Below, one piece after another: positions 13,245 through 36,919 of a stretch of DNA of 47,064 nucleotides. The stretch is from Candidatus Martarchaeota archaeon. Lineage in GTDB: Archaea; Micrarchaeota; Micrarchaeia; Micrarchaeales; Micrarchaeaceae. The notes beneath the pieces are model-generated. The model saw only the letters and a program-made list of their open reading frames with translations. It had not been told where the DNA came from and did not search any database. The translations under genes were made by a program, and so were the position numbers. Every line of letters begins with the position of its first letter. Position 1 is the first letter of the stretch. The DNA is taken from assembly GCA_023485545.1 (NCBI GenBank), contig JAMCZI010000030.1:1-47064 (forward strand), written 5' to 3'.

Positions 13245-14792
13245 GTGATGAAGCCCATTTCGGCTGAGGACAATGGTGCTTGCATGAGGTTCAACAACCG
13301 GTTTTTTGGCATTATAGTTGCCCTTGCAGCGCTCATCCTGGCGTACTACAATTCGCTCTCGATAAGCAGTTTCGTGATATCAGACTCTGATCCGTACACG
13401 TATGGCGTAGTAGTAATGCTGATGGGGCTCGTCTTCCTTTTCCTCGGAGTCAGGGATAAACATCTGGAACCTTCACCCACAGCCGTGTGGATTGGTGCTG
13501 GAAGCGCGCTCGTGGTAGCGTACGCGCTTCTGCTTGCATATGCGAGAGTGGCGCTCTCTTTTTGGTTTATCTCCTACAGGATAGATGTCCTGCTCATACC
13601 GGTATTCCTTGCAGGAATAGTGCTGGGCGTGTTCGGGCCGCGCGGGCTGCTTAGGCTGAAATACCAGATAATATACCTGTTTTTTGCATCAGGAGTCGTG
13701 CTCAGTCCGCTCATAGCGCTGAATGCTTCTTTTACCGGATTGAATGCAGGGCTGGTCTACACGTTGATAAAGGCGCTAGGCATTCCAGTTGTGAGGAGCG
13801 GGCTGGTGATAAGTGCCGCTTCATCAGGATCGATTTCGATCGCGTCGACATGCGCTGACATAGCGGCGTTCATTGCAATCGCGCTTTTCATGGTGCCGCT
13901 CGCGTATTTCTATGAAGGAAAGCCAACCAAGAAATTCGAATGGGTGGTATCTGGGGTTGCTCTGCTGTTCGTTTTCAACATATTCAGGATGTCGCTGATA
14001 GCAGTGCTTTGGGCGTACTACGGAATAGGGGAAGCGGTAGCAACATTCCACCTGTTTGTAGGCAGCGTGCTCTTCTACGCGAGCATAATAATAATGATAC
14101 TGATTGCAGGAAAGTTTAGGCTGAGACTCCCGTACCTGAGGGATTACATAATTGGGAGCAGAAAGAGCGGGAAGCTCAGCCCCAATATGCGTTACGCCGC
14201 GGTATGGGCAGTAGCTGCGGGATTGATTGCACTCGTACTGACAGCGCCATACTCATCCGCGCTGAACTTCGGATACTACGGTTTCTCCAAGTCGCTATCT
14301 GCAGAACAGAGTGCGTCGATAGGAGGCTTCCTTGAATCATCAATCAGAAACGCAGGATACTCCGAGGCTTACATTGGCAACGAAAGCGGATACTACGCGT
14401 TCGCCTTGACTAACGCGACGTCAGGAAGCAGGTATGTGCTGCTGTTCAATTACGGCGCAGGAAGCAGGACGGAAGTGCCTGCCTTCCCAAGGGCGGGAAA
14501 CAGGACGTACACTTATGAGACGCAGCACGGAGTTGCATTGACCGCTTTCTTAGGCACAGTTAACGGCACTATGGTCGCAGTGGACCAATTCAGCATGCCG
14601 TATAACGCTAGCGGGAAGTTTGTGGAGCTCAACTATTATTTCGTATCCAGCCCAGCCAATGCAAGCTACTGCGGGTACGAAGGAGGTTATGTTGACGGGA
14701 TATATACTGCGCTTTACAACGCGATGCTGCTCAGGACAGTGGCGGTGCAGCCAATGTGCGTGGCGTATAGCTATCTGAACTCGGTGGGATGA
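13245..14792 (+). CDS. Archaeosortase/exosortase-family membrane transpeptidase
   Basis: A polytopic membrane protein with about eight helices in the first 310 residues and a C-terminal outer domain of about 200 aa. The exosortase/archaeosortase catalytic set is visible: Cys in I-A-S-T-C-A-D-I-A-A-F (about residue 204), Arg in F-N-I-F-R-M-S-L (about 248) and His in T-F-H-L-F-V-G-S (about 268). These enzymes cleave C-terminal sorting signals of surface proteins and attach the product to a lipid. The C-terminal domain with NAT, NRT, NGT and NAS sequons sits where EpsI-like domains are found in some exosortases. Start: GTG 13245, next to ATG 13248; a later ATG at 13284 is possible. It overlaps the next gene by 4 nt. 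Confidence 0.85.
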   Translation: MMKPISAEDNGACMRFNNRFFGIIVALAALILAYYNSLSISSFVISDSDPYTYGVVVMLMGLVFLFLGVRDKHLEPSPTAVWIGAGSALVVAYALLLAYARVALSFWFISYRIDVLLIPVFLAGIVLGVFGPRGLLRLKYQIIYLFFASGVVLSPLIALNASFTGLNAGLVYTLIKALGIPVVRSGLVISAASSGSISIASTCADIAAFIAIALFMVPLAYFYEGKPTKKFEWVVSGVALLFVFNIFRMSLIAVLWAYYGIGEAVATFHLFVGSVLFYASIIIMILIAGKFRLRLPYLRDYIIGSRKSGKLSPNMRYAAVWAVAAGLIALVLTAPYSSALNFGYYGFSKSLSAEQSASIGGFLESSIRNAGYSEAYIGNESGYYAFALTNATSGSRYVLLFNYGAGSRTEVPAFPRAGNRTYTYETQHGVALTAFLGTVNGTMVAVDQFSMPYNASGKFVELNYYFVSSPANASYCGYEGGYVDGIYTALYNAMLLRTVAVQPMCVAYSYLNSVG

Positions 14793-22634: not shown

Positions 22635-22795
22635 CTACCCGTTTTCACGCTGCTTCTTGCCGCTGAATATTTTTATGAACATCTTTGTCAGGAAGTTGCT
22701 GTCCTTCCGCCCTATCTTCTGCTTTATGTCGTATACGCGTATGTAACGGAGGCGCTTGTTTATCCTGACGTAGTATTTTCCTGTTGCCGTGCTAT
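22635..22795 (-). other. 3' continuation of the coiled-coil/winged-helix gene in a shifted frame
   Basis: Past the TAG at 22792-22794 the +1 frame encodes about 53 more residues (G-K-Y-Y-V-R-I-N-K-R-L-R-Y-I-R-V...) ending in TAG at 22635-22637, just 5 nt before the next gene. This frame has no ATG, GTG or TTG before its first two thirds are over. Removing one base from the GGGG run (CCCC at 22796-22799) joins it in frame to the upstream gene as E-L-R-D-S-T-A-T-G-K-Y-Y, completing the wing of its winged helix. Confidence 0.65.
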
Positions 22796-23559
22796 CCCCT
22801 CAGCTCTATGTACCCGAGCGAGACCATCTTGTTGAGCATCTGCTCTATTCTCGTGGGGCTCGCCTTGTAGGATTTTGCGAATTCGTTTATGTCTATTGCA
22901 CTGTCATGCGACTCTATCCACTCCTCAAGCATAACCATCAGCGACTCGTCAGAATAGCTCTCGAGCTGTGAAAGCCTCGACTTGAGCTCCTGGTTCTCTG
23001 AGCTGAGCTGCGCAGCCTGCACCGTCAGGTTCCTGTTCGAAGCGGTAAGCTCTATGTTCAGGCGCTTGATTTCGCGCTGCTCGTTCAGCAGGGCGCTGTA
23101 ATTGTTGAAAAGCGTGCTGTAGCTCTGTGAGAGCGACCCGAGCACGTCTTCTATAGACGACTCAATGAGCTGGAAGATGCCGGAGCCTTCGGGCTGGTAC
23201 TGGTCCGATATGAGAGAAAGCACGCTTGCCAGGCTCTTCACGACGTAGAGCTTGCGCATCTTCGGGCTCGAGTCCTTTGCTATAGAATACTGGACGTCTA
23301 TTCCATCGCGCGCAAGCGTTATTATGAAGAAAAGGAATGGGCGCTTCTGTATGTCGCGGCTTTCAACCCGTGCTATTGACAGGCTGGAAGCGGACTCCTT
23401 TATGTAGAATATCTGCAGCGATGAGAGACGCGTGGCTATGCTATCGAACGTCCCTGTAAGCGTGCCGTTAACGTGGAAACCGTCTACGTCCGGTTCTATG
23501 AAGCCGGTAGTTTCTTCAGCCATTTCTAAGTTCACCGATTTGATATCCAATGGGCCCAT
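22792..23559 (-). CDS. Coiled-coil winged-helix protein (apparently frameshifted near the 3' end)
   Basis: 255 aa as read. The N-terminal half (to about 135) is a mixed alpha/beta domain. A long coiled coil covers about 160-215 (L-N-E-Q-R-E-I-K-R-L-N-I-E-L), then comes an HTH with D-I-N-E-F-A-K-S-Y-K-A-S-P-T-R-I-E-Q-M-L-N near the end. Translation stops at Y-I-E-L-R-G, in the middle of what should be the wing. A coding stretch in another frame completes it (see 22635-22795), so a one-base indel, sequencing error or programmed shift is likely. A TATA at 23621-23630 gives it a possible own promoter. Starts ATG 23559 or ATG 23523. It may be a cytosolic regulator or adaptor of the apparatus. Confidence 0.68.
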   Translation of the reverse strand: MGPLDIKSVNLEMAEETTGFIEPDVDGFHVNGTLTGTFDSIATRLSSLQIFYIKESASSLSIARVESRDIQKRPFLFFIITLARDGIDVQYSIAKDSSPKMRKLYVVKSLASVLSLISDQYQPEGSGIFQLIESSIEDVLGSLSQSYSTLFNNYSALLNEQREIKRLNIELTASNRNLTVQAAQLSSENQELKSRLSQLESYSDESLMVMLEEWIESHDSAIDINEFAKSYKASPTRIEQMLNKMVSLGYIELRG

Positions 23560-23633: not shown

Positions 23634-24092
23634 TCATTCATGTTTATATCCCTTTGTTTTTGTAATTCCACCGGCGGGGCGCATGCCGCTTGTATGCATG
23701 CTTGCTGCAGAGCCGCCAGCTGCAGAATCACGCTTCTGCTTCCCTGCAGCGTGCACTGCTTCAAGAGCAGGCATATAGCTGACCAGCGACAGGAGGTACA
23801 GGAAGACCACTATGCCAAACCCGTAAAACAGCGAATACAGGTTGAAGCTGGACAGAACGAAGAGAGCTATGGCAAAGACTGCCCCGAGGCCCACGTATAG
23901 GGAGCGCTTCCTCTCGAACGACTTCCTCTGCTTGTAGTACTTCGGGAAGTCCTCCCTGCACACCACCAGCCGGAAGCCCTTCTCGTTCTTTGTGACGTTG
24001 CGCTTGAACCACCTTATTGAGGAGAGGATGTAGTCGTTCCTGACCTCAAGGCCTGCAATCCTTTTTCCGCAAATTATGCAAGCGTCCTCCAT
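23634..24092 (-). CDS. Zinc-finger two-TM membrane protein
   Basis: From the ATG at 24092 the product is 152 aa, starting M-E-D-A-C-I-I-C-G-K-R-I. Together with a later V-V-C-R-E-D this resembles a small zinc ribbon (C-x-x-C ... C). Two adjacent membrane helices follow at about 65-105 (Y-V-G-L-G-A-V-F-A-I-A-L and F-G-I-V-V-F-L-Y-L-L). The tail is short, Gly/Ala/Ser-rich and basic. The preceding gene's stop at 24094-24096 lies directly before this ATG (TGAGATG), so translation is probably coupled; the frame also opens further upstream at 24113. The family is not recognised. The position suggests a membrane component of the ATPase complex. Confidence 0.62.
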   Translation of the reverse strand: MEDACIICGKRIAGLEVRNDYILSSIRWFKRNVTKNEKGFRLVVCREDFPKYYKQRKSFERKRSLYVGLGAVFAIALFVLSSFNLYSLFYGFGIVVFLYLLSLVSYMPALEAVHAAGKQKRDSAAGGSAASMHTSGMRPAGGITKTKGYKHE

Positions 24093-24093
24093 C

Positions 24094-24408
24094 TCAAGCC
24101 CCGCCGAAATCAAGTATGGCGTCGTACACTCTGCCTATCTCGCTGGCCACCCTCTGCTCGTCTATCGCGTTGAGGGCCTGCTCTATCGCGAGATCGCTCA
24201 GCCCTATCCTGCGCAGCACGTTGGAGACTGCGTCGCGCTCCAGGCCGGACTTCTCGAGCATCGATATGAACGAAAGAAGGTTTATGTGCCTGTGGCTCTT
24301 CTCCATGCTCGATATTATAGATGTAATGCTCTTCTCGCCTACGCCAAAGGCTATCAGTATCCTGCGCAGCTCCTGCCTGCTCAGCGTGAACGTGTCTTGG
24401 TTAGGCAT
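24094..24408 (-). CDS. Helical-domain protein paralogous to the ATPase C-terminus
   Basis: A 104-aa all-helical protein. Its first 75 residues (R-Q-E-L-R-R-I-L-I-A-F-G-V, S-I-I-S-S-M-E-K-S, L-S-F-I-S-M-L-E-K-S-G) align without gaps to the last 75 residues of the adjacent ATPase (R-E-E-L-R-N-K-L-I-E-Y-N-V, S-I-F-S-S-M-D-E-S, L-D-F-I-N-V-L-F-Q-N-G). The two therefore share a helical module and probably arose by partial duplication. The gene overlaps the ATPase stop by 8 nt. It may bind the same partner as the ATPase tail, or compete with it. No outside family is recognised. Confidence 0.68.
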   Translation of the reverse strand: MPNQDTFTLSRQELRRILIAFGVGEKSITSIISSMEKSHRHINLLSFISMLEKSGLERDAVSNVLRRIGLSDLAIEQALNAIDEQRVASEIGRVYDAILDFGGA

Positions 24409-25918
24409 TCCTCACACCAGCCTTCGCTATTATCCTTGTTATTATCGAGTCCTCTATGCTCATGCTCTTCAGGAGCAGGACTATGTCCGACGCTTCTACG
24501 CCGTTCTGGAAGAGCACGTTTATGAAGTCAAGCATCTTGGGGTTTCTCCCGCTCTCGTCCATGCTAGAGAATATGCTGTCTATCCCTTCTGCAGAGACGT
24601 TGTACTCTATGAGCTTGTTCCTGAGCTCCTCCCTCTCGAACTGGTAATCACGCTGTATCACGTTTGACGAGAGCTCTGACTCGCTTATCGCGCCCTCCAT
24701 GTTGACCGTGTATACGTAAAGCGGCGTCTCGCCCTGTATCTTCTCGAGTATGAACGTCTGCGGGAACCTGAGCGCGGTCTGGAACGCCATCTCGACTGCT
24801 GCCTGACCCACACCGAAGTTGCTTATCTCCTCGCGTATGAAATTGGAGAAGTTTATCGTTCCCTGTATGTAGTTGAGGAACTTCTCGAACTTTATCCGCA
24901 GTATGAATGTGGTGCCGACGTTTGAGAATATTGCCTCGTTTATGTCAGTAGGGTTCTGCGACGCGACTATGAGGCCGAACTGGTATTTCCTGCCCTCCCT
25001 TACAATGGTTATTGCGTCACTTCTGTCATCACTGGCTATCTTCCATGCTTCATCAAGCACCACTAGGGTCTTGAGGCCCTTGCTCTCGCTCCAGCCCTCG
25101 AAGCGCATCTTCTCCTTCAATGTCTGGAGTATGAACAGCGATGCGAGGCCCCTGAACTTCTCGTCGGGAAGCCCTGATAGGTCTATGTCCACCAGCCCTG
25201 ATTCGGAGAGCTTGCCAAGGTCTATGGTGCTCTTCCGCGCGAAGAAGTCCTCGCCTTCCCTGGCAAACTGCCTCAGCCTGTATATTGTGTTCTCCAGCTC
25301 TGCTGGATACTCATACGTGCCATCCTGCAGCTTTTCTTCAAGAAGCGCTATCACATCCTTTAGCGTAGGGGATTCCTTTCCTTTCTCAGGCGGCTCAGAC
25401 ACTACGAACCCTAGGTTGGTGTACGCCTGCTCTATCGCCTCGCTCGTAAGTCGCCTCTGCTCAGCGAACTGCGATATGTCTGTCAGTATCTCGAAAGAGG
25501 TCATTATCTGCTTGACCCTGTCAAGCGGCTTCATTCCAGAGAGATCCATTATGTTGAGGTAGTCGCCCTTGCCGAGAGCTATCACTTTCCCGCCGCTCTG
25601 CTTTACCCAAGCCTTGTACTCTCCAGCCCAGTCTATTATAACCGCGTTGGAATTCCATACATAGCTTGCGCGTATGAGGAATGTCTTGACGAAGTAGCTC
25701 TTTCCTGAACCGGTTATGCCAACTATTGCTATGTGCGGGTTGGTGAGGTTTGTGAAAGACCACGAGAACGGCACCTGGAACACCTTTGTGGTGCCTATGT
25801 ATATCGACTTCAGCACGTCGCCGACCAGTATGCTCGCCGGAGGCTCCGGCGGCCTTGAGAGGAATGACCTCTTCGCTATGTCGTTGCTCATCAGGTTCTG
25901 AAGCTTCAGTATGCTCAT
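24401..25918 (-). CDS. VirB4/HerA-like type IV secretion ATPase
   Basis: A 505-aa motor ATPase. Seen: Walker A G-I-T-G-S-G-K-S (about 76-83) after a strand N-P-H-I-A-I-V, I-I-D-W-A-G-E-Y downstream, Walker B T-L-V-V-L-D-E-A-W-K (about 289-298) with the catalytic E, the sensor-like V-A-S-Q-N-P-T-D-I segment, and an arginine-containing C-terminal region. The usual VirB4 N-terminal domain is almost absent; only about 60 residues precede the P-loop. Two upstream membrane proteins may supply it. The last 75 residues form a helical module repeated in the next gene. CedB and VirB4 power DNA or pilin movement in related machines. No VirD4 or relaxase is found nearby. Confidence 0.85.
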   Translation of the reverse strand: MSILKLQNLMSNDIAKRSFLSRPPEPPASILVGDVLKSIYIGTTKVFQVPFSWSFTNLTNPHIAIVGITGSGKSYFVKTFLIRASYVWNSNAVIIDWAGEYKAWVKQSGGKVIALGKGDYLNIMDLSGMKPLDRVKQIMTSFEILTDISQFAEQRRLTSEAIEQAYTNLGFVVSEPPEKGKESPTLKDVIALLEEKLQDGTYEYPAELENTIYRLRQFAREGEDFFARKSTIDLGKLSESGLVDIDLSGLPDEKFRGLASLFILQTLKEKMRFEGWSESKGLKTLVVLDEAWKIASDDRSDAITIVREGRKYQFGLIVASQNPTDINEAIFSNVGTTFILRIKFEKFLNYIQGTINFSNFIREEISNFGVGQAAVEMAFQTALRFPQTFILEKIQGETPLYVYTVNMEGAISESELSSNVIQRDYQFEREELRNKLIEYNVSAEGIDSIFSSMDESGRNPKMLDFINVLFQNGVEASDIVLLLKSMSIEDSIITRIIAKAGVRNA

Positions 25919-25927
25919 TCTATCAAC

Positions 25928-26761
25928 TCATCCCTGCCTGTCGAATTCCGAGGCTATCGACGACTCGGTCAGCGGCACGGCAAAATTAAACCTGAATATC
26001 GTGTAGAGCTCGCGGCCCACTATCCTCGACATCTGTAGGTCGAGCACGCTCAGCGACACCTGCAGCTCGCGAAGCTGCTCGGAGAGCAGGTCCACCGCGG
26101 CCTTCTCGCTCACTCCCACCGCTGATGTCTCGACGTACATTAGCGATGCTATTGGCTTCTCTCCCTGGGCTATCCTGTCTATCTGGGTCTGCAGCGTCCT
26201 TATCTTCCTTTGTATGTCTGTAACAGCCATCTCGTTGCTCGAATTGCTTTGCATCAGCCTCGAGAGCTGGTACTCCTGATATGAGCGCTTGCCCTCCAGC
26301 TCATCCCTGACCTTCTGCACCTCCCTCCCTGCGGATATGATGTGAAACTTGAAAGGGAATTTTATGTTCATGACTGTGCGCTCCCACCTCTCGGGAGCAT
26401 CTGCCATCTGCTGGTCCTCGTCCTCGCCTATCGACTCCTGCTTGAACCTGTATGCAAATACGTTGCCGGTAAGGTAGCCGGTTGCGTAGAATAGCCCGTT
26501 GACGTTCTTCACTATCGCATCCTGCGATTTTGGGACATGGTATCCCTTTGCAGGCTCTACAGATATTCCGAGCAGCTTCATCGCTGCCGGATAAAGTATC
26601 GAATCCGCCCAGTTCATCCCAGCCACAAGTGCCAGGGCGATTATGGCGAATATTATTGCGAGAAGGTAGAGGATGCCGTGGCCGACCGTGTTTGCTGTCG
26701 CTATGACTACGAATATTATAAGCAGCGAGAACATCAGATATCCTATGCCAAGCTCATCCAC
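25928..26761 (-). CDS. Two-TM protein resembling a VirB3/VirB4 N-terminal domain
   Basis: A 277-aa protein starting with GTG after a perfect ribosome binding site. Two N-terminal membrane helices (about 8-28 and 30-50) are followed by a cytosolic domain of about 220 aa with a long helical hairpin (V-T-D-I-Q-R-K-I-R-T-L-Q-T-Q-I) and the Y-V-E-T-S-A strand. This 2-TM plus soluble layout is shared with the next gene upstream. Because the ATPase downstream lacks a VirB4 N-terminal domain, I suggest these proteins are the detached VirB3-like/VirB4-N parts. This is structural analogy, not a recognised match. The ATPase gene follows after 9 nt. Confidence 0.62.
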   Translation of the reverse strand: MDELGIGYLMFSLLIIFVVIATANTVGHGILYLLAIIFAIIALALVAGMNWADSILYPAAMKLLGISVEPAKGYHVPKSQDAIVKNVNGLFYATGYLTGNVFAYRFKQESIGEDEDQQMADAPERWERTVMNIKFPFKFHIISAGREVQKVRDELEGKRSYQEYQLSRLMQSNSSNEMAVTDIQRKIRTLQTQIDRIAQGEKPIASLMYVETSAVGVSEKAAVDLLSEQLRELQVSLSVLDLQMSRIVGRELYTIFRFNFAVPLTESSIASEFDRQG

Positions 26762-27595
26762 TCATATCACCTCCTCCCTCATCTCGGCGTTCATGTGCTC
26801 GCTCACGGTGGTTGCAGGCATGACGTATTCAGGGTCTATGAAGCTCTTCAGCTGGTCCCCAGTTATGAATGTTGGCGATATCCCGAAGATTGTGCCAACC
26901 CCGGCTATTATCTCGCGTGCGCGCTGCTGCGCTGCGCTCACCGCCTCGAACTCCTTTGAGCCCATTGCGGATATGCTGGCGTAGGTTATCAGCTCCATCG
27001 ACTGTGTCTTTGATGCGTTGTCGAGCATGCGCTTCCACATCGCAGTGCCGCCCTTCGAGCGCTCTATGGCTGCAGGGTCAGAATTGGCTTCCATTGCCTG
27101 AGCCTCCGAAGCCTCGCTCTTGTTTATCATGTCGCGCACCTGCTGAAGGTAGGCGTCCTTGTTCATCAGCGAGAGCTGCACCGAGTACCTTATCGGATCC
27201 TTGTTGAGCCCGACCATTGAGCTCACTTGTTTCGAGAATTGGAGTGCCTCTTCCGGGCTCATCTCCGTAGCTGATTTGTAAAGCGGTATGCGCACGTACA
27301 CCGTGGCTATGAAATCCTCGCCCTCCCTCCTTAGTATTGAATCAGCGGATGGCGATATCCAGTATGGCTCCTCCTTGCTCAGCACAACATGCTTTCCGGG
27401 ATGCTTGAGCATGTGCCCTATTATCTGGGAGTAGTGCCTTGATGAAAATGCGAGGACGTCGAAACCTAGTGAAAGTATGAGCAGCACGAGCTTGCCATAG
27501 ACAGTGACTAAGCTTGCAGGCAGGGCTTCGGCAAGCACCAGCAAGACGACGGAAACCAATATGAGCCCCAAAAAGAGGGGCATGCTCTTGTCCAT
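26762..27595 (-). CDS. Two-TM protein, second VirB3/VirB4-N-like component
   Basis: From the ATG at 27595 the product is 277 aa (the frame also opens with TTG at 27604). Two membrane helices lie at about 5-25 and 30-50, then a soluble domain with V-Y-V-R-I-P-L-Y-K-S-A-T-E-M-S and a long charged helix (D-M-I-N-K-S-E-A-S-E-A-Q-A-M-E). The same architecture as the following protein suggests distant paralogy. The end abuts the next start (TGA then GTG). A TATA at 27658-27667 begins this operon, giving a leader of about 40 nt. The role is inferred to be membrane anchoring of the ATPase. Confidence 0.62.
   Translation of the reverse strand: MDKSMPLFLGLILVSVVLLVLAEALPASLVTVYGKLVLLILSLGFDVLAFSSRHYSQIIGHMLKHPGKHVVLSKEEPYWISPSADSILRREGEDFIATVYVRIPLYKSATEMSPEEALQFSKQVSSMVGLNKDPIRYSVQLSLMNKDAYLQQVRDMINKSEASEAQAMEANSDPAAIERSKGGTAMWKRMLDNASKTQSMELITYASISAMGSKEFEAVSAAQQRAREIIAGVGTIFGISPTFITGDQLKSFIDPEYVMPATTVSEHMNAEMREEVI
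26766..26775 (-). promoter_or_regulatory. Perfect ribosome binding site
   Basis: AGGAGGTGAT lies 4 nt before the GTG at 26761, inside the end of the preceding gene. It is fully complementary to the 16S rRNA 3' end. It supports the GTG start and suggests strong translation of this component. Confidence 0.7.
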
Positions 27596-27657
27596 TGCGA
27601 TCAACCATGCGCGCAGATTACCTTATCCTGAAGCCTCAACCTCATTTTGTCTTGAAA

Positions 27658-27686: not shown

Positions 27687-28859
27687 TCATATGAAACCGC
27701 GCACCTTTCCCATGCTCTTCGTCGCACCGCCTATGAACGCTGAAAACTGCTGTATGAATACGTAGGCCAGGGCGGATATCAGCGAGGGATAGAATAGTAT
27801 CATGAGCCAGAATGAGCTCATCGCGCTCTCGATGCTGCTTACATCCGTAACGATTGGGGAGGCGGGGCTGAGCGCGTTGTTTATCGCACTGCTGCCAGAG
27901 CCGAAGCGATTGAGCTGCTGCGTGGCGTAACTGAACTGCTGCTGCACTGTAGGCGAGGTAAAGTAGAACGCCACCGCGAAAAGTGTCGGGACGACAAGGT
28001 AGAACGCCACGCCTATGGCTATGAGCATCCCGCCTAGCGCTCGCGTAGGGAAGAGGGCCCTGAATATCACGCCGGGTATTATGAATGCGGGTATGGATGC
28101 CACTGCGAAAAATACTATCAGATAGTACTCCGCGTATAGTATGGTTATCCCGTCAACTATCAGCGACGCAAGCTTGTTTGCCGGCTCTATGAAGTACACG
28201 ACGAGAGGGAAGGTCCTCAGCGTATTCGTGATGTTTATCAGCCCGGTCGCACTGAAGTAGCTGCTCGAGAGGGTCTCCTTCACTGATATGTAGAAGCTGT
28301 CAACCATGTACACGTTGAACAGCGATGTGTACAGCGACTCCCCGGACGAGATGGTTGAAGTTATTAGATGCAATGATGTGGCATAGGGATTTATCGTGCC
28401 TACGAAGGCCCCTGGCGTAAGGCCAAACAGCACCGCAGAAACGTACATGAACATCACAACTATTACCATTGTGGCAGACACTTCGTAGAGCTCCGCTATG
28501 CCGAAGTTCCTTATCTTGCTGTTCTTCATCGCGGAGCCGAACATGAATATTGTTCCGGCTATGGCGAGCGAAAGGAGTATCACAGCGAGCGCTATTGGTA
28601 TGTCGTTAGACCATGAATTGTAAATCTGCTGGCTTATCGGGCAGTACCATGGCTCATAGGTTTCTATCTGCTGCGCCAGGGTTGAAGGCAGCAGCGCGCA
28701 TCCTGCAGTTGGTGATGCAGATCCGCCTAGCCCTGGAATTCGCAGCAGTACTGCTGTCGTCGCCGCATGCGATGTGTATGGCAGCAGGATCAGTGCCATC
28801 GCTATCACGAGCCCGAGGAGGGCGCCTTTCCACACGTTGTTGCGATGCATGGTCAACAC
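27687..28859 (-). CDS. VirB6/CedA-like polytopic membrane protein (paralog 1)
   Basis: A 390-aa protein with a signal-peptide-like N-terminus (W-K-G-A-L-L-G-L-V-I-A-M-A-L ... S-H-A-A), outer segments with C-x14-C spacing, and about six membrane helices. It carries both cluster signatures: I-A-E-L-Y-E-V-S-A-T-M before a helix, and V-I-F-R-A-L-F-P-T-R-A-L-G-G-M-L-I-A-I-G followed by V-V-P. The C-terminus (F-I-G-G-A-T-K-S-M-G-K-V-R-G-F-I) matches the tail pattern of its paralogs. Start GTG 28859, sharing one base with the preceding stop, or ATG 28850. It is the last gene of the six-paralog operon. The function is inferred: inner-membrane channel of a type IV-like machine. Confidence 0.7.
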   Translation of the reverse strand: MLTMHRNNVWKGALLGLVIAMALILLPYTSHAATTAVLLRIPGLGGSASPTAGCALLPSTLAQQIETYEPWYCPISQQIYNSWSNDIPIALAVILLSLAIAGTIFMFGSAMKNSKIRNFGIAELYEVSATMVIVVMFMYVSAVLFGLTPGAFVGTINPYATSLHLITSTISSGESLYTSLFNVYMVDSFYISVKETLSSSYFSATGLINITNTLRTFPLVVYFIEPANKLASLIVDGITILYAEYYLIVFFAVASIPAFIIPGVIFRALFPTRALGGMLIAIGVAFYLVVPTLFAVAFYFTSPTVQQQFSYATQQLNRFGSGSSAINNALSPASPIVTDVSSIESAMSSFWLMILFYPSLISALAYVFIQQFSAFIGGATKSMGKVRGFI

Positions 28860-30352
28860 TATACGAGCCCGTTCAGCAGCGTCATGAAGCTTATCCTTAC
28901 GCCTATGGCGCTTGACATGTCTATCACGAATACATCAAGAATCACTATGTTTATAAAAGGTATGAATGTAAGCCCTGCGACAAGGTAGCCCAGCTCAAGG
29001 AAGAACGGAGCGGTGTAAGGGAGGGCACCAACGCCGAATATCACAGGGATTGCGCTTGCGCCGAAAGTTGCAAACTGTGTGGTGAAAATAGCGTCCATTC
29101 CTGCCAGCGTAAGCGTTGACACCACAGGGCCGGATGCGCCCGATGAGCTTAACAGGAACAGGTGTATGAGCTGCACGTCCATGAAGCCGTACGTTAGCGA
29201 AGTCAGTATTGGATAAATCAGCCCTATTCCAAGGCCTAGCGCTATCATTGCACCACCGAAGCGGCGCGAGAAGCCGAATATCCATGCCACTATCCCTATG
29301 GACAGCAAGAATGGCAGGAAGAAAAGCGAACCAGAAAGCAGTATTAGCTGCACCTGGTTTATCAGCAGCATAGTCACTATCAAGCTTGACGCAACTGCCA
29401 GCAAGTCCTCGATGTCTTTCGGGAATATTGAATCAAGGGAGGTGCTGATGCTGACACCTGAAACCAATGGGACAGAAAGCTTCGCCGTTGCGCCTGGCGA
29501 GAGCGCACCCACGTATGACACGTAATACAGTTCATCGTAGAGCGCCTGCGACGCAAAATTGAACGTTGATATGTCACATACGCTGATTCCGAATATGCTG
29601 TTCACAACGTTTGAGTTGCAGGTTGCGGGAAGCAGCCCTGCGGCGTTAAAGTTGGAGAGCGGGTTGAGGAACATCAGGTACGAGAACGCTGCGACGATGA
29701 GTATCAGGAGTATTGCGAACAGGGCTTCGTATATCTGCATCTTTGCCCAGTTCTTCGCAGCCTGGCTGGCTATTACGCCGCTGAGCTGGTACACTATCGC
29801 GGCTATGGCGATGACGAGCAGTGCAGCGGCAGCAGCGAGGGGCAGCCAGGACAGTATGCTGTCCTTGAAGCCCGCCGCAGAGGTAAGGGGAGGTATTGTC
29901 GACGTGCTTGTCGAGCTCGTGGTTGACGTTGTCGTTGAAGTCGAAGTGGAGGAGGTAGACGTTGTGGTTGAGGTTGTCGTGCTGGTGCTTGAAGTAGAGG
30001 TTGATGACGTCGAGGTTGATGTGGTAGAAGTTGTGGTTGACGTTGTTGTAGAAGTGGTTGTTGACGTTGTGGTTGACGTTGTGGTTGATGTGCTTGTGCT
30101 GTAGCAATTGTACAGATCACCTGTGCCAAAGTCGCACCCGAACTCGTTTGTTGTATAATCAGGGCAGGATGATGGGCAGGGATTTCCTCCAAGCCCGAAG
30201 ACCGAGCTGCACAGGCTCTCCGGGCACGAAGAGGAGAATGACAGCGATTGGCTTGCTGCATTGGAATGGTAGGAGGCGCCTGACAGGATTATGGGCAACG
30301 CTACCGCGATCGCGAGCGCGAACATCAGTGCAGTCTTTGTTGCATTCATCAT
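28859..30352 (-). CDS. VirB6/CedA-like membrane protein with Ser/Thr stalk (paralog 2)
   Basis: A 497-aa protein. After a signal peptide (about 1-33) comes a Cys-rich outer segment (seven Cys at about 43-83), a 68-residue Ser/Thr-only stalk (85-152) and about six helices. Cluster signatures: M-Q-I-Y-E-A-L-F-A-I and I-F-G-F-S-R-R-F-G-G-A-M-I-A-L-G, then I-Y-P. It ends L-L-N-G-L-V. The stalk would lift the Cys-rich head from the membrane and is a likely O-glycosylation target. This is the only paralog with such a stalk, so it may be the outward-facing or adhesive component. The start overlaps the preceding stop by 4 nt. Confidence 0.7.
   Translation of the reverse strand: MMNATKTALMFALAIAVALPIILSGASYHSNAASQSLSFSSSCPESLCSSVFGLGGNPCPSSCPDYTTNEFGCDFGTGDLYNCYSTSTSTTTSTTTSTTTSTTTSTTTSTTSTSTSSTSTSSTSTTTSTTTSTSSTSTSTTTSTTSSTSTSTIPPLTSAAGFKDSILSWLPLAAAAALLVIAIAAIVYQLSGVIASQAAKNWAKMQIYEALFAILLILIVAAFSYLMFLNPLSNFNAAGLLPATCNSNVVNSIFGISVCDISTFNFASQALYDELYYVSYVGALSPGATAKLSVPLVSGVSISTSLDSIFPKDIEDLLAVASSLIVTMLLINQVQLILLSGSLFFLPFLLSIGIVAWIFGFSRRFGGAMIALGLGIGLIYPILTSLTYGFMDVQLIHLFLLSSSGASGPVVSTLTLAGMDAIFTTQFATFGASAIPVIFGVGALPYTAPFFLELGYLVAGLTFIPFINIVILDVFVIDMSSAIGVRISFMTLLNGLV
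29897..30100. repeat. Imperfect 12-bp repeat tract encoding the Ser/Thr stalk
   Basis: About 204 bp of variants of GTTGTGGTTGAC, plus shorter triplet variants, read on the minus strand as Thr and Ser codons only. The units are multiples of three, so gain or loss keeps the frame and would change stalk length. Confidence 0.75.
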
Positions 30353-31473
30353 ATCAGCTTGTTAAGCACCTTGCCTCTTGACAGGCTCGGCGCACCCAGC
30401 ATGTCTGCGAGCGTCTCCATCATGTCGAACGATATTATGAAAGTGAAGCCTATCGCTATCAGGGTGTAGCCCATTGGCACGAGCACTCCTGAGATGAACG
30501 CGAAAAGCGCATCCAGCGATAGGAGGTTGCCAAGAGATGCAAATATTCCTGTGGGAGCGGATACGCTGAAAGAGCTAAACGTGGATGACAGGCTGCTCAC
30601 CGTGCTCGGCGGCAGCTGAGGCGGCACTATAGATACGTTTATTGAGAGCAGGAAGTGCAGGAGGAGCGGGAATATCAGGTAGAATGCGAAGAAAAGCGCA
30701 AGCATCGCGCCTCCCGCTGCCCTGGTCCATGGAAAACTCCTGAGCACTATCCCTACATACAGGAATATCGGAAAGAGCGAGAAGAATATCGCAAGAAGGG
30801 CTATTGTCGCGATGAAAAGCCCGGCTATCCCGCCTGCAATCTCGACAACCTCATCCAGCACCGACCGGTATATTGCAAATCCTGAGAATGGCTTGAAAGC
30901 GACGCCGAAGCCGTTTGGCTGTAGCTGCACGTTCACATTCTTTGCCGCGTCGACTAGGTTTCCAAGTATGGAATATGCTATTATCTGCTGCGGCATCTCT
31001 GTGACTCCGTAATACGCAAGGTAGGAGCAGTCGGAGGAGAATATCTGTGCGTTTGCTGATGGAGCAGTAGGCGTGTTCAGCCCGGGTATGCCTGCTATGC
31101 TTGTGCTCCCGTACGTGCTGTTGAACACCGAGAAGGTGCCGACAAATACCGCTATTATAAGCACAGTGACTATTATCTCCCCAAATTCGGTCTTTGCGAA
31201 ATTTGTAAGCCTGTTTATCTTGAATGAATAGCCAAGGGAGTAGACTATGCCCAGAACTGTCGCGACAGTGAGCAGCAGTATCATCGATATCTCTATCAAG
31301 TACGATAGCGACTGCGGATGGTTGAGGACCGAATTGGATGGTGATATTATCGTCGAACAGAATGCTGCGTCGGGGTTAGGCACATTGGACGTGGCGGCGT
31401 GCGATTCGGGGACCACGAGCGCCATAAGCAGTGCTAGCATGACGAACGAAACCGCAATTTTTCTCCTGTTCAT
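30349..31473 (-). CDS. VirB6/CedA-like polytopic membrane protein (paralog 3)
   Basis: A 374-aa protein with a signal peptide (M-N-R-R-K-I-A-V-S-F ... S-H-A-A, about 1-26), a pair of outer Cys and about seven membrane helices. Signatures: T-E-F-G-E-I-I-V-T-V before a helix and I-V-L-R-S-F-P-W-T-R-A-A-G-G-A-M-L-A, then I-F-P. The C-terminal tail (M-L-G-A-P-S-L-S-R-G-K-V-L-N-K-L-I) follows the family pattern. It starts 3 nt after the preceding stop and overlaps the next start by 4 nt. It is inferred to be a channel component. Confidence 0.68.
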   Translation of the reverse strand: MNRRKIAVSFVMLALLMALVVPESHAATSNVPNPDAAFCSTIISPSNSVLNHPQSLSYLIEISMILLLTVATVLGIVYSLGYSFKINRLTNFAKTEFGEIIVTVLIIAVFVGTFSVFNSTYGSTSIAGIPGLNTPTAPSANAQIFSSDCSYLAYYGVTEMPQQIIAYSILGNLVDAAKNVNVQLQPNGFGVAFKPFSGFAIYRSVLDEVVEIAGGIAGLFIATIALLAIFFSLFPIFLYVGIVLRSFPWTRAAGGAMLALFFAFYLIFPLLLHFLLSINVSIVPPQLPPSTVSSLSSTFSSFSVSAPTGIFASLGNLLSLDALFAFISGVLVPMGYTLIAIGFTFIISFDMMETLADMLGAPSLSRGKVLNKLI

Positions 31474-31476
31474 TTA

Positions 31477-32907
31477 TTACACCAGCTTTGACAGCCCTGC
31501 CATCGAAGTGTCGCCACCCATAAGGCCGGATATCCCCATTATGGCGGAGAGCGTTATTATCAGGTTCAATATAGGGAGGAAGTATGATGATACGCCTATT
31601 ATCGCCGATGCGTTGAGTATCGGGAACACCAATGATACCGCATCTCCAGGGGAGCACGAGTCCGGGAAGCTGAGCACGGGTATCGAGCTGAACGATGGCG
31701 CTCCGGATATAAGCGTCTGGATAAGGGAGACCACACCTCCGGAAAACCCTATGAATGGTATCTCAAGGTACGCTATGTCAACAGCTTCCGCTCCTCCGAA
31801 GCCTCCGCTTGGCCAGCAGCTGTACTGCTCGGCTATGTATTTTATCTTTGGCTCGTTGAAGAAATTCACAGCGTAAGTGCCGCCATTCGGCCCTGGAAGG
31901 GCGGTCAGCGCACTCGTGTATATAGAGTTGAAGCCGTATGTCGATGTTATGCCCTGGCTTGATTGGGATATGAGCGCGTTGTTTATTCCAGCGCCCATGG
32001 AGAGGTACTCTATCGTGTATATTGCAGGGAATATGAGCACCGCCCCAATGCCTATGGCTATCAGCAGGCCGCCTATCTTGCGCGTGAACGGAGTAGCGCG
32101 AAGCACTATGCCGCCGAATATCAGGTATGGCCACGCAAGAAGGAAGGCGGTGAGCAGAAGCATCTGCAGCGTGAACGACTCGAACGCGAACGACAGTATG
32201 TCGCCAATGCTCCTCATTGACCCTAGTATCATGGCATAGCCGGCATACGGCGTATAGGAGATTCCGGTGCTGATTATCGGCCTGAGAGGAACAACAGGGA
32301 CCACGCACGGGCCCAGAAGGTTTGGCACCTGGGTGCAGAACTTGAATGTAGGCGTCGCTTTTGCGAAGAACCCTATGTAGGCATCGACCTCGAAGAACTG
32401 GTCGAGGTTGGTCACCGTCTGGTTTGTCATGTTTGCCAGTATCAGGCCGCTCACTGCAAGAGGATAGTCTGATATCTGTGTCACGTCTGTTGTAGTGGGC
32501 GCGCCGTCTATTATGTTACATATTCCGGGGGTGCTGCCGGGAGTTGTGCCTGCATATAGCAGCGACGGGCTTACGCCTATGAGGTTCAGGTTTGTCGTGC
32601 TGGATAGCGATGAGCACAAGCCGCTCATTGCGTTGTAGCTCATGAGGCTTGTCCCAGAGAGCGCGGTCTCGAAAAATTTGCCGAATGTGGTCACCGCCCA
32701 TATCACTATAAGCGCTATCAGTATAGTCCCTGCTATCTGGTAGAACTCGTTTATCGCCGAGGACTTGACTGTAGAATTGTTCAGGACTGAGCCTATCATG
32801 TACCATACTGCTATTATCGCCGAGTCAAGCAGTATCGCGGCTATCGCCAGGGGTATTATGCCGGAACCCAGCCCGAACGTCAGCATCAAAGAAGGATCGA
32901 AAAGCAT
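31477..32907 (-). CDS. VirB6/CedA-like polytopic membrane protein (paralog 4)
   Basis: A 476-aa protein with a hydrophobic N-terminus but no clear signal cleavage site, about seven helices and two large outer loops rich in Thr/Pro with several Cys. Signatures: I-N-E-F-Y-Q-I-A-G-T-I before a helix, and I-V-L-R-A-T-P-F-T-R-K-I-G-G-L-L-I-A-I-G followed by I-F-P. The tail G-L-M-G-G-D-T-S-M-A-G-L-S-K-L-V fits the family. It is 10 nt after the preceding gene. Loops differ strongly from the paralogs while the core motifs are kept, suggesting a shared membrane core with specialised outer parts. Confidence 0.68.
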   Translation of the reverse strand: MLFDPSLMLTFGLGSGIIPLAIAAILLDSAIIAVWYMIGSVLNNSTVKSSAINEFYQIAGTILIALIVIWAVTTFGKFFETALSGTSLMSYNAMSGLCSSLSSTTNLNLIGVSPSLLYAGTTPGSTPGICNIIDGAPTTTDVTQISDYPLAVSGLILANMTNQTVTNLDQFFEVDAYIGFFAKATPTFKFCTQVPNLLGPCVVPVVPLRPIISTGISYTPYAGYAMILGSMRSIGDILSFAFESFTLQMLLLTAFLLAWPYLIFGGIVLRATPFTRKIGGLLIAIGIGAVLIFPAIYTIEYLSMGAGINNALISQSSQGITSTYGFNSIYTSALTALPGPNGGTYAVNFFNEPKIKYIAEQYSCWPSGGFGGAEAVDIAYLEIPFIGFSGGVVSLIQTLISGAPSFSSIPVLSFPDSCSPGDAVSLVFPILNASAIIGVSSYFLPILNLIITLSAIMGISGLMGGDTSMAGLSKLV

Positions 32908-32917
32908 GAAAGCACCA

Positions 32918-34087
32918 CTATATATTGCCCCAGAAGGAGGCAGCCCCCTCTATGCCTGCATCAAGCGAGGACGCAAGGCTCTGCGCGAAGCCGAGCGTCA
33001 CTGCTACGTCAAGGCCAAACAGGAAAATCCCCACGAATATGAACTGCGCCATTTCATCTATTGTAGTCAGGATCTGTGATGTGACCGCAAACGGGTCGAA
33101 GAGCGGCAGCACCCCGGTAGATGCATAATTGCCAAGCAGTGAGTTTAGCGACGGAGTCGTGATGCCGAGGAAGCTTCCCGAGACACTTGATGAGAGCGAG
33201 CTGAAGAACGTGGATGGAAGCGAATCTAGGGTAAACGATGTGTGCAGATACTGGAAGTAGGGGTTCTGCACAGAGAATATCCAGTTCACTATGTATGAGT
33301 TGTACGATATCATCAGCGGGTATATCAGGTAAACAGCTATGGCTATGGCGAGCACAGCGTTGGAGGCGCTGCGCAGGCCGCCTGAACCTGAAGCCGAATA
33401 TGCTATCGAGCGCATTATGAGCGCAACGGGCAGCACTACGGTAAATGCAGTGTATTCAAATATGGGTATGGACAGGTACTGCACGAAAAGCGACCCTATC
33501 ACAAGCGTTATTATAGGGCCGAACACAGCCAGGTAGAGGTCTGAAAGTATTCCGAAGTTAGCGCCGAGGTCCGCGCCGAAGCTGAATCCGACAGAGAAGA
33601 TTTCGACCCCCTTGTTTGCAGTAGACTTCGAGACAATTTTCGCCGTATGGCTGAGGAATCCTGGCCCTTCGTAATTGATCAGCGCCGGATACACCCTCGA
33701 GTCTATGCCGTAGTCTATCGAGGTCAGATAAATGTTGGTGAGCAGCCTCAGCCCTGTGTTGAGCGTGAGGTTACCTATGTAGTAGTCGGAGTAGGCGAAG
33801 GGGCTCTCGGTTGTATGGGTCACGTGCTGGCTTATAGCCGTAGATGCGGTGCATGCGGTCGAAGCCGCGCCTATCAGCACTATGATTATTATGACGCTTA
33901 TGAAGAGCTGCGTGAGCTCGACGCGCATGACTGATGTTATCTTCCCCTTCATCGAAGACGGAAGGAACCTCGAGAGCATGTAGACAAGCGTCACTACGAA
34001 TATACCTGCGAGTATTACGGCGAAGTTTATGCCTAGCCAGCTGTTGACGTACGAAGCGCCGCCGTAAAGTGCACAAGTCTGCAACAT
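32918..34087 (-). CDS. VirB6/CedA-like polytopic membrane protein (paralog 5)
   Basis: A 389-aa protein, N-terminal helix at about 18-40, about seven helices in all. Signature one is R-V-E-L-T-Q-L-F-I-S-V before a helix. Signature two is the most diverged of the set (I-M-R-S-I-A-Y-S-A-S-G-S-G-G, then A-V-L-A-I-A-I-A and I-Y-P). The tail L-A-S-S-L-D-A-G-I-E-G-A-A-S-F-W-G-N-I lacks the usual LGG. There are two adjacent Cys near residue 80 (T-A-C-T-A-S). It starts 8 nt after the preceding gene. Divergence at the conserved loop may mean a different job within the complex. Confidence 0.66.
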   Translation of the reverse strand: MLQTCALYGGASYVNSWLGINFAVILAGIFVVTLVYMLSRFLPSSMKGKITSVMRVELTQLFISVIIIIVLIGAASTACTASTAISQHVTHTTESPFAYSDYYIGNLTLNTGLRLLTNIYLTSIDYGIDSRVYPALINYEGPGFLSHTAKIVSKSTANKGVEIFSVGFSFGADLGANFGILSDLYLAVFGPIITLVIGSLFVQYLSIPIFEYTAFTVVLPVALIMRSIAYSASGSGGLRSASNAVLAIAIAVYLIYPLMISYNSYIVNWIFSVQNPYFQYLHTSFTLDSLPSTFFSSLSSSVSGSFLGITTPSLNSLLGNYASTGVLPLFDPFAVTSQILTTIDEMAQFIFVGIFLFGLDVAVTLGFAQSLASSLDAGIEGAASFWGNI

Positions 34088-34095
34088 TTATACCA

Positions 34096-35655
34096 CTATG
34101 CTATGCTGAATTTGCCGAAGCTGAGGTTCAGCTCACCTCCCAGTGTCCTCGCTATGCTCTGCGTTATCACTACGACTATTACCAGGTCGAATATGAACAG
34201 GACGAACTGGAGCAGCACGTCTATGAATGCCTTTGAGGTTATGATGTTCATCGCAGGATATATTGAGCCGAAGCTGTCGAACCCTGCAGTAAAGCCGGTA
34301 GCCATGTCCGAGCTGAAAATGCTTGATATGTCGGCCCCGAACGATGCAACGCTGCAGAGAAGACCGCTGCAGCTCTGCGAAACGGATGTGGATAATGTGG
34401 AGCCGATCATGCTGCTTATCGGCAGGTTGAACAGCACAAGCACCGACGGGTATATTATTGCGGTTGCTATGCCAACTGCGATCATGTTGCCGCCTATTCC
34501 TCTCATGAATGGGAACGCGCGCAGCACTATGCCTATGGGTATGAATATCCCTATGCCTATTATCGCCCCGGTATATAGGAACTCAGATTGGAACTGGAGT
34601 ATCACAACCACAGGCACAAGCACAACAGCTATGAACGCTTTGAGGAACGAGTAGGATGTGGGGTCAAAGCTCTCCAGCACGTTTGTGTTGTATATGCTTC
34701 CGGTGAAGCCGAACTGGAGCGAAGCTGGTATGGCAGGGTAGGGAGGCAGGGGAATCGGGAACCATACCGCGAGGTTGAGGCTCTTCAGGAACTGTATGCC
34801 GTCAGCCAGGCCCAGCGCGGTGTCGTATGCGTTCTCCGAAACCTGGACCTGCGCCTGCGTGAATGTGGCGGCAGCCGCATAGAGGGACTGGAGGTTGCTT
34901 GCTAGCCTGTTTCCGCCTCCTGGAGTCCCTATCTGCAGGTTTGGCGCGGATGCCCCGGCTACGAAATTGACGGCTATGCCGCTGAGTATGATCAGCGTAG
35001 AGAATATCACGATTAGAAGCATTATTGTCTTTGCCGCCTCCCACAGCTCACCCTTGTACCATTTCTTAAGGCCGTCAATCTGCACGACCTCGCCGAGCAT
35101 GTACGCCAGCGCTATCATTGCGAACGTTACAAGCAACCCTATTGCAGAGAGGGGTATTGAAGCCTCGAGGCAGCCGCCGAGCGATATGTAAGTGCCCGTG
35201 ACAACGCAGTACGGCTCGCTGATAGCAGGAGCGACATCCACTGAAAGGCTGGAGGACTTGAGCACCGTGCCTGAGTTTATAGCGTTTACTGTCATCGTCT
35301 GGATCCCTGCAGGAAGCGGAGCTGCCGCGCCGTCGCTGTAGTAGCATGCAGTCTGCCCGCCAAAATTTCCGGAGAGGTCGCAGCTTATGTAGGATAGGCC
35401 GCTAAGCTGCTCGACGCCATTAACGTAGAGCGTCAGCGTGGTGCCGGAAGGCATGCTAACCGGCGTCGCTTGAAACGTGTCGTTGTAGCCGAATGGGACA
35501 GGGTTCTCCTGCAGTGTCAGGTATATGTTCTGCGGCGGCGGTGGCGCAGCTGCAAATGAATAGTTGGAAATAGCAGCTATCAGGAGCACAGCGACAAAAA
35601 GGGCGAGAGCGTTCCGTGCAGGCGCTGTAAGGCTTTTGGCATATTGCTCAGCCAT
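34096..35655 (-). CDS. VirB6/CedA-like membrane protein with N-terminal outer domain (paralog 6)
   Basis: A 519-aa protein, first gene of the operon. A signal peptide (about 15-36) is followed by an Ig-like outer domain of about 120 aa (L-T-L-Y-V-N-G-V-E-Q-L-S-G, two Cys, then V-N-A-I-N-S-G) and about seven helices. Signatures: G-E-L-W-E-A-A-K-T-I before a helix, and I-V-L-R-A-F-P-F-M-R-G-I-G-G-N-M-I-A-V-G followed by I-Y-P. The tail L-G-G-E-L-N-L-S-F-G-K-F-S-I-A is the fullest version. A TATA at 35677-35686 lies 26 nt before the ATG, so it is probably leaderless. Confidence 0.7.
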   Translation of the reverse strand: MAEQYAKSLTAPARNALALFVAVLLIAAISNYSFAAAPPPPQNIYLTLQENPVPFGYNDTFQATPVSMPSGTTLTLYVNGVEQLSGLSYISCDLSGNFGGQTACYYSDGAAAPLPAGIQTMTVNAINSGTVLKSSSLSVDVAPAISEPYCVVTGTYISLGGCLEASIPLSAIGLLVTFAMIALAYMLGEVVQIDGLKKWYKGELWEAAKTIMLLIVIFSTLIILSGIAVNFVAGASAPNLQIGTPGGGNRLASNLQSLYAAAATFTQAQVQVSENAYDTALGLADGIQFLKSLNLAVWFPIPLPPYPAIPASLQFGFTGSIYNTNVLESFDPTSYSFLKAFIAVVLVPVVVILQFQSEFLYTGAIIGIGIFIPIGIVLRAFPFMRGIGGNMIAVGIATAIIYPSVLVLFNLPISSMIGSTLSTSVSQSCSGLLCSVASFGADISSIFSSDMATGFTAGFDSFGSIYPAMNIITSKAFIDVLLQFVLFIFDLVIVVVITQSIARTLGGELNLSFGKFSIA

Positions 35656-35704: not shown

Positions 35705-36424
35705 TTACCTCCTCATCATCGGGAATTTCTTCAGGTATGCCTCGCTCTGGAACACTATCAGGAATGGCATCACAAGCAATGAGTTAATTATGATTGATAG
35801 GTATTCTGAGAACTGCGGCACGGCTGCTATGAAGAGGAGGTCTATCAGAGTAATAGAGACGGCCGCAATGGCGAGCCAGACAAGAAAATAGGAAAAGCCA
35901 GATGCGAAAAACTTCGCGCTGCGTTTCATCGCCTTTGGTATGCGGCTATCCTCCATCACTATGGAAGCAGGAGCGTAGAACACGAACGGCGTTAGGGCAA
36001 GCCCTACGACTGCTGTTATCAGCCCCACGGGCCGTATGCCGTAGGTAAGTATCTCTGAAGCGAATATTGCAAGGGTGAAAAGGCCCAGCACCGCGAATAT
36101 CCTGGCGGTGTACTTCTCTATGCCCTTAAGCACCTCTGCGCTCACACGCACATGCATCCTGCTGTGCTTCACTATTACGTTTATCGAGACTATGGCGAAG
36201 CTTAGGAATAGCAGGGAGAATATAGAAGCGATTATTATCACTGATGCGCTAAGCGGCGTGATGTTGAAGTAAAAGAGGCTCGAAGTCCTTATCAGTATCG
36301 CTCCCGCATCGTTGAAAGTCGGGAACGCAGCGAGGACCGGTATGGCAAAAGCTATCAGGAAGGAGAGCGAGAACAGCAGTATAAGTCTCGCGTTCTTCCT
36401 GTACGTCTCAAGCGAATAATGCAT
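35705..36424 (-). CDS. Six-TM membrane protein (YciC/DUF4013-like)
   Basis: From the ATG at 36424 the product is 239 aa; a TTG at 36436 in the same frame is possible. There are about six membrane helices with short loops and no signal peptide. The segment I-V-M-E-D-S-R-I-P-K-A-M-K-R-S-A-K-F-F resembles the conserved helix-loop of YciC/DUF4013-type proteins (E-x-x-x-x-x-A-h-x-x-S). A TATA at 36474-36483 gives a leader of about 28 nt. It sits between the pilin and the six paralogs, in the same orientation but with its own promoter, so membership in the apparatus is uncertain. Confidence 0.62.
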   Translation of the reverse strand: MHYSLETYRKNARLILLFSLSFLIAFAIPVLAAFPTFNDAGAILIRTSSLFYFNITPLSASVIIIASIFSLLFLSFAIVSINVIVKHSRMHVRVSAEVLKGIEKYTARIFAVLGLFTLAIFASEILTYGIRPVGLITAVVGLALTPFVFYAPASIVMEDSRIPKAMKRSAKFFASGFSYFLVWLAIAAVSITLIDLLFIAAVPQFSEYLSIIINSLLVMPFLIVFQSEAYLKKFPMMRR

Positions 36425-36473
36425 TACTCCAGGCAATTCAACACCGATGCGCTGTTAGTAATGAAAAAAGAAG

Positions 36474-36538: not shown

Positions 36539-36919
36539 TCAGGTGCTGCTGCATGCCGACGCTATCGCAGTGTTGCCGGAGATCACCTGAAGCAGGTAAG
36601 GCGCTATTATCACGATTATGACGCCTATTATGCCGCCCACTATGAAGCCCATTCCGTAGCCCTGAAGGCTTCCCTTGAGGCTTGATGGTGCGACGTGCGC
36701 TCCAGCATATATTGCTCCGCCCAGTATCATGAGCGTCAGGCCGAGTATGAATATTATTGTTGTGACGCTTGAATAGACTCCGCATATTGCGTTGAGCGCG
36801 TTGGCGGTAGTGGTAGTCGCAGAGCTCACTGATAGGAGATATGACCCAAAGATAAGCACTGAAATGAGCAGCCTCAGATACCCCATCTTTCCGTTAAGCA
36901 GTGTGTTAATGTTTTTCAT
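36539..36919 (-). CDS. VirB2/CedA1-like conjugative-type pilin
   Basis: A 126-aa protein. The N-terminal helix (L-L-I-S-V-L-I-F-G-S-Y-L-L-S-V-S-S-A) is a signal peptide. After cleavage the protein has two hydrophobic helices (about 53-75 and 90-113) joined by a short loop with H-V-A-P-S-S-L-K-G-S-L-Q-G-Y. This matches VirB2/TrbC pilins and the archaeal CedA1/TedC pilins: small, two helices, a basic loop facing the pilus lumen. Two Cys (C46 and C123) flank the helices and could form a disulfide. It is monocistronic, as expected for a highly expressed pilin. The assignment rests on architecture and neighbourhood. Confidence 0.68.
   Translation of the reverse strand: MKNINTLLNGKMGYLRLLISVLIFGSYLLSVSSATTTTANALNAICGVYSSVTTIIFILGLTLMILGGAIYAGAHVAPSSLKGSLQGYGMGFIVGGIIGVIIVIIAPYLLQVISGNTAIASACSST

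Follow-up and report, generated by a model that had tools for sequence, protein, structure and literature searches.

Six tandem genes for related membrane proteins occupy one segment of a micrarchaeal contig, raising the question of whether they encode the parts of a single hetero-oligomeric channel or a set of diversified surface ends. The segment lies within a window, by which we mean the whole stretch of 47,064 nucleotides analysed, from a Ca. Micrarchaeota MAG of 761,826 bp in 32 contigs (G000). We favour, with a probability of roughly 0.6, a chromosomal type IV secretion system (T4SS)-like machine in which six fixed VirB6/CedA-like subunits belong to one hetero-oligomer.

Six paralogous membrane proteins

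Positions 27687-35655 are filled end to end on the minus strand by six genes, M1 to M6, numbered by array position and lying no more than 10 bp apart or overlapping slightly; across array genes in general the median intergenic gap is 1 bp. M1 (27687-28859) and M4 (31477-32907) are ORFs of 390 and 476 aa, respectively. M2 (28859-30352, 497 aa) carries a Cys-rich head and a Thr/Ser-rich stalk in its predicted outside part, M3 (30349-31473, 374 aa) lies where the NCBIfam CedA model finds its match, M5 (32918-34087, 389 aa) is the divergent subunit, and the VirB6/CedA-like M6 (34096-35655, 519 aa) has a long N-terminal ectodomain. Each protein has 6-8 predicted hydrophobic helices.

Taken individually, M1-M6 receive no usable name from Pfam, NCBIfam or PHROGs, but their homology to one another, claimed in an earlier note made from the sequence alone, is confirmed. 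BLASTP links M2-M6 (1e-18), M3-M6 (5e-14), M1-M4 (6e-13) and M3-M5 (3e-12), and in the pairwise profile comparison that the note had proposed, all 15 pairs, M5 included, align at 97.8-99.9% probability, with E-values of 1e-12 to 1e-32 spanning most of the protein lengths. Inspection of the motifs finds signature 1, [EQ]-[LIF]-x-[EQ], in all six proteins (AELYE, MQIYE, TEFGE, NEFYQ, VELTQ and GELWE), as the note had stated. Signature 2 (VLRAxPFxRxxGGxxIA) can be read clearly in M1, M3, M4 and M6 but only in degraded form in M2 (AWIFGFSRRFGGAMIALG), and M5 has almost lost it. The description of five near-identical copies was therefore slightly generous; the divergence of paralogue 5 and the dissimilarity of the outer regions, illustrated by M2 and M6, were correctly recognized. 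In M1, where this was examined, K/R-rich loops border both signatures, which would thus be expected on the cytosolic side with the variable domains outside, a topology inferred from sequence and consistent with the face on which R388 VirB6 meets VirB3/VirB4 (PMC9259494).

M5, the most diverged of the six in the window, bears on an arrangement that is a variant of the favoured reading and not its opposite: a VirB6-type pentameric ring built from five of the paralogues, with the divergent position 5 serving as an accessory such as a cap, a gate or a VirB5/VirB8-like partner. The R388 VirB6 homo-pentamer has C5 symmetry (PMC9259494), with which a ring of six conflicts; position 5 also has a weaker signature 2, and in most arrays it lacks the C-terminal Gly of column 321 that the other five positions conserve. 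However, the signature-1 Glu and both Arg of signature 2 are retained at position 5 at 90-95%, and we regard a five-plus-one arrangement as possible but unlikely.

The operon and its kinship with VirB6/CedA systems

In order of transcription, all on the minus strand, a VirB2-like pilin gene (36539..36919) and p10 (35705..36436) precede M6 to M1, which are followed by p3 (26762..27604), p2 (25928..26761) and a HerA/VirB4-type ATPase (24401..25918), and then by genes for a 104-aa homologue of the ATPase C-terminus (24094..24408), a 159-aa CxxC protein (23634..24113), a 255-aa protein (22792..23559) and a 789-aa membrane protein (20260..22629). The order M6-M5-M4-M3-M2-M1-p3-p2-ATPase is identical in nearly every sufficiently long Micrarchaeales locus; in a few genomes (L104, L105, L112) the six-gene block is intact and stands apart from the ATPase.

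The pilin (126 aa) combines a signal peptide-like N-terminus with a two-helix hairpin. In its family profile, the TrbC/VirB2 Pfam matches 19/23 members (best E 3e-8) and the T4SS_pilin model 16/23, and the best PDB match is R388 TrwL/VirB2 (E 1.1e-4), although the window pilin taken singly gives only a weak TrbC match (E 0.057); a VirB2-like pilin, as in a Ced/Ted system, is accepted as present. The six-helix membrane protein p10, included on synteny and kept between the pilin and M6 in most Micrarchaeales, weakly matches BPSS1780_fam (E 7.5e-4). The p3 protein consists of a two-helix hairpin and a VirB4 N-terminal-like domain without an ATPase. For its structural model (pLDDT 82.9), the top 8 PDB matches, and 10 of the top 11, are R388 VirB4 (TrwK) or inner-membrane-complex chains; the first eight have probabilities of 0.89-1.00 and a best E of 1.9e-3. 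Its VirB4 N-terminal-like paralogue p2 matches it at 100% in profile comparison and at 6e-5 in BLASTP. Because of these R388 matches, p2 and p3 look like VirB4 N-terminal domains freed from the ATPase, and we accept this fold for both despite the low TM of about 0.3.

The ATPase itself (505 aa; Walker A GITGSGKS, Walker B LVVLDEAW) matches DUF87 at 1e-19 and, among NCBIfam models, CedD best (5.6e-21), followed by ICE VirB4 and CedB (9e-19), all far below their equivalog cut-offs; it is present in 56/60 relatives and in 39/39 of those of high quality. Conserved behind it, the 104-aa protein is matched by the ATPase HMM at about 40-63 bits in Micrarchaeales loci. The two-helix membrane CxxC protein and the 255-aa protein also keep their positions, the latter being cytosolic, with a coiled coil, a winged-helix-like C-terminus and weak FeoC/EAP30 matches; a protein of ~215 aa stands at the equivalent place in the simple locus described below. 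The 789-aa protein, the product of a conserved downstream gene, has a large outside part and no match in a Pfam search.

Several neighbouring features were recorded as well. A gene divergent to the pilin (37108-38814, plus strand), whose product may be a carbamoyltransferase, has similar ORFs (MYVLGLWDGHDAGAALL...) in the corresponding location in L115, L116, L117, L119, L120 and L123. The window also encodes an Exosortase_EpsH-family protein (13245-14792, plus strand; E 1e-23), possibly an archaeosortase. In other Micrarchaeota families, three tandem VirB2-like pilin genes lie directly before p2-ATPase (L095, L096, L097).

With at least five hydrophobic helices and VirB2/VirB4-type neighbours, the array proteins have the make-up of VirB6/CedA. 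An AlphaFold model of M1 (pLDDT 81.9, pTM 0.74) finds R388 TrwI/VirB6 as its best natural PDB matches in Foldseek (E 0.029, probability 0.98); the fit is modest, with TM about 0.3 and two designed helical proteins scoring higher, and searching PDB sequences with the profile of M1 gave no match. Of the 224 genomes of the phylum, 67 are matched by the CedA model NF041796, with E down to 2.7e-8 and none above the 330-bit cut-off, and every match that could be placed falls inside a six-gene array; in the window it lies in M3 (G000:C8:30589-30876, E 1.4e-4), also below the curated cut-off. An N-terminal part similar to the VirB2/CedA1 pilin is a criterion for the VirB6/CedA superfamily (PMC9905601); here, the pilin profile aligns with M3 at 89.9%, M5 at 86.7% and M2 at 56% probability, and poorly with the remaining positions. 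In the comparison with CedA and TrbL/VirB6 suggested at the outset, CedA is matched only below its cut-off and the fold match to VirB6 is modest; the TrbL/VirB6 Pfam (PF04610) has no match in the genome of the window or in 51 family members. These CedA and R388 TrwI/VirB6 matches, with the VirB2-, VirB4-N- and VirB4/Ced-like neighbours, support VirB6/CedA kinship of the array.

The fold match, the CedA matches and the operon components together indicate a chromosomal Ced/T4SS-like machine, for which no relaxase over the cut-off (PF03432, the only class searched) and no coupling protein (TraG-D C-terminal, PF12696; control genomes positive) were detected in six genomes. This lack, and the extra conserved genes of unknown role, would also suit an adhesion or pilus platform, or a chromosome-handling device, built from borrowed T4SS parts without transferring a substrate between cells. 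Ced, however, operates without a known relaxase too (PMC11868833), and the ATPase has CedD and CedB among its nearest NCBIfam models, leaving such a device doubtful.

One or six genes and positional orthology

Among 224 genomes searched with the superfamily profile A3, 208 gave a match; all matches were listed for 27 genomes, and 60 regions were annotated. Once duplicates and loci truncated at the end of a contig or region are excluded, 74 distinct untruncated loci from about 20 families remain, comprising 53 with six VirB6-like genes (50 counted directly and three after inspection) and 21 with one; none has any other number. This counting rule, a VirB6-like gene six-fold in a row or alone, is the new element, limited to the sampled genomes and dependent on HMM detection of array members. 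Candidate exceptions were rejected: the five-gene arrays L041 and L086 are products of ORF overlap in the filter and contain six genes, L139 (G132:C39) has one ORF broken by TAA, and arrays of two to four genes are located at locus or contig ends. The interrupted L139 member may reflect gene decay or a sequencing error. Separately, seven genomes (G014, G040, G058, G154, G158, G166, G198) yield one VirB6-like match only, through either array loss or incomplete assembly.

The single-gene loci mostly represent a second, minimal locus consisting of a pilin, one VirB6-like protein, one p2-like protein and an ATPase, which eight Micrarchaeales genomes examined carry in addition to the large locus and away from it. 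The genome of the window has its own copy (L106; G000:C27:9000-25000, 6661-9842), and the arrangement recurs in L107-L111, L113 and L122. Its components are homologous to those of the large locus, with profile probabilities of 99.7% for the VirB6-like protein to M3, 99.6% for the p2-like protein, 100% for the ATPase and 98.2% for the pilin. In other families the single VirB6-like gene lies beside p2 and ATPase (L164-L166, L168, L172) or stands alone (L167, L169-L171, L173), and the two genomes G216 and G217 of family f23 have the simple form only. Many genomes carry two six-gene arrays, and several families carry two arrays and one single gene.

A tree built from 43 arrays and 21 singles clusters the rows by array position and not by genome, with clades containing position 6 from 43/43 arrays, positions 2 and 4 from 42/43 and singles from 20/21 loci. 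Positions 1, 3 and 5 are each divided between two large clades, of which the smaller comprises Micrarchaeales, with one to two stray rows for positions 1 and 3. A more careful tree of 92 rows requires 7 changes of position label (minimum 6, shuffled mean 62), although position 3 is weakly supported as one clade and positions 1 and 4 are not single clades. Exchange between arrays was assessed by parsimony on 12 two-array genomes, three others without a clear array type being omitted; types were assigned from position 6, so this position is not independent. One or two changes suffice to separate the array types at each of the six positions, and exactly one at every position when a fast-evolving genome is left out, compared with about 7.4 on average under random within-genome swaps. 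Subunit swaps between arrays are thus absent at every position in 11 of the 12 genomes. The second array type, found in other families, has a very large position-4 protein (627-1143 aa); arrays of this type stand apart from the first in L125, L127, L129, L131, L145, L147, L149, L151, L177 and others.

A fixed number, positional orthology and the absence of exchange are the pattern expected if the genes encode obligate subunits of a single hetero-oligomer, as arises when a homo-oligomeric ancestor gains paralogous subunits. The alternative, a repertoire of six surface proteins that each sit in a separate complex or show a different outer domain to different hosts, draws on the strong differences among outer domains, on the faster divergence of array proteins than of the ATPase between genomes, and on the surface exposure of two tandem VirB6 paralogues in Anaplasma (PMC7648143). 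Under such a repertoire, however, number, order and members should vary, whereas every untruncated array sampled has six genes, positions are conserved and swaps are absent in 11 of 12 genomes, and we find this alternative improbable. Between the two possibilities of the earlier note, we favour the hetero-oligomer and not a mere diversification of surface ends, even if the outer domains have diversified too. That the six subunits are non-equivalent is supported, while neither a physical complex nor its stoichiometry has been proven. Chance similarity of unrelated membrane proteins, conceivable given that hydrophobic proteins can align spuriously and named in the earlier note as its refutation, is ruled out by the profile pairs, and functionless tandem duplication can likewise be set aside, with six positions conserved over about 20 families.

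The proposed machine and known systems

Under the favoured hetero-oligomer, the locus would encode a chromosomal, T4SS-like cell-envelope machine related to Ced/Ted. Its VirB4/CedB-type ATPase is proposed to dock via the two VirB4-N-terminal-like membrane adaptors, p2 and p3, which would join it to a membrane complex of six different VirB6/CedA-like subunits carrying or feeding a VirB2-like pilus or conduit. The conserved loops, probably cytosolic, may face the ATPase and adaptors, and the diversified outer domains may form an extracellular face that probably contacts a host or partner cell; both the substrate and this contact are inferred, DNA as the substrate only by analogy with Ced. A single VirB6-like gene, which most genomes still keep alone in the simple locus, is the presumed ancestor of the six paralogues, which would since have become non-interchangeable parts of a single hetero-oligomer, although the direction of descent is inferred. 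We tentatively suggest, at somewhat less than even odds, that this conversion of a single VirB6/CedA subunit into an obligate position-specific hetero-hexamer, or a pentamer plus one, took place early in the phylum, was kept in most families and was followed in some by duplication of the whole complex. Against the proposal, some genomes have the array and the ATPase in separate places, and one ATPase per array has not been shown in two-array families.

The VirB6 of T4SSs is structurally known as a homo-oligomer (PMC9259494), and the present data suggest a channel of six different subunits where a known relative uses copies of one. No earlier report of the six-gene array was found in the literature, most subscription papers and preprints lying outside the search. 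If correct, this would to our knowledge be the first T4SS-type channel of six different subunits, and the one-or-six number, together with the conservation of positions, opens subunit-specific roles to direct testing. Micrarchaeota are tiny archaea, probably host-dependent, and the machine is near-universal in Micrarchaeales. Where it touches its host, the cultured ARM-1 (Microcaldus) shows nanotubes and a barrel-like docking structure, as yet without molecular identity, the tubes being thought by the authors to originate in the host (PMC11329633); the machine would be a candidate for the apparatus, still to be identified, with which these symbionts make cell contact.

The closest precedent for the six-gene array is the tandem VirB6 of the Rickettsiales rvh/sodB-virB T4SS (PMC2653234, PMC7648143), in which reduced-genome symbionts likewise maintain a diverged VirB6 array with variable extra domains, there beside virB3-virB4; the purpose of the copies was raised as a question in 2009 (PMC2653234). 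The Rickettsiales have four or five copies in varying number (R. massiliae is without virB6e), whereas six is constant in our sample of Micrarchaeota; they also possess a TrbL/VirB6 domain, a full VirB4 and an outer-membrane core, and whole-array duplication is found in Micrarchaeota, unlike the tandem VirB6 of Rickettsiales. The R388 Trw system (7o3v, 7o41; PMC9259494) provides the best natural matches, to TrwI/VirB6, TrwK/VirB4 and TrwL/VirB2, and the cytosolic face of its VirB6 meets VirB3/VirB4 (PMC9259494), but its VirB6 is a homo-pentamer, its VirB4 is in one piece, and it has a relaxase, a coupling protein and an outer-membrane complex. Patescibacteria that live as reduced-genome epibionts have also retained T4SS components and carry arrays of a diversified one (PMC12102498), consisting of VirB2 pilins and not VirB6.

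In function, the micrarchaeal machine probably works most like its probable relative Ced/Ted of Thermoproteota (CedA, CedA1, CedB, CedD, CedE; PMC9905601, PMC11868833), which imports chromosomal DNA between cells upon DNA damage, although membership of the curated families is not met and sequence matches are only sub-threshold. Both are chromosomal without a known relaxase, and both combine a VirB2-like pilin, a CedA/VirB6-like channel, a HerA/VirB4 ATPase and a VirB4 N-terminal domain divided between two proteins. Ced/Ted has one or two CedA-like proteins where Micrarchaeota have six, and CedB and CedD bear the N-terminal domain on the ATPase, in contrast to two separate adaptors. CedA and CedE have been proposed to form a hetero-oligomer (PMC11868833), and the pairs CedA/CedE and CedB/CedD offer a two-part analogue of both micrarchaeal peculiarities.
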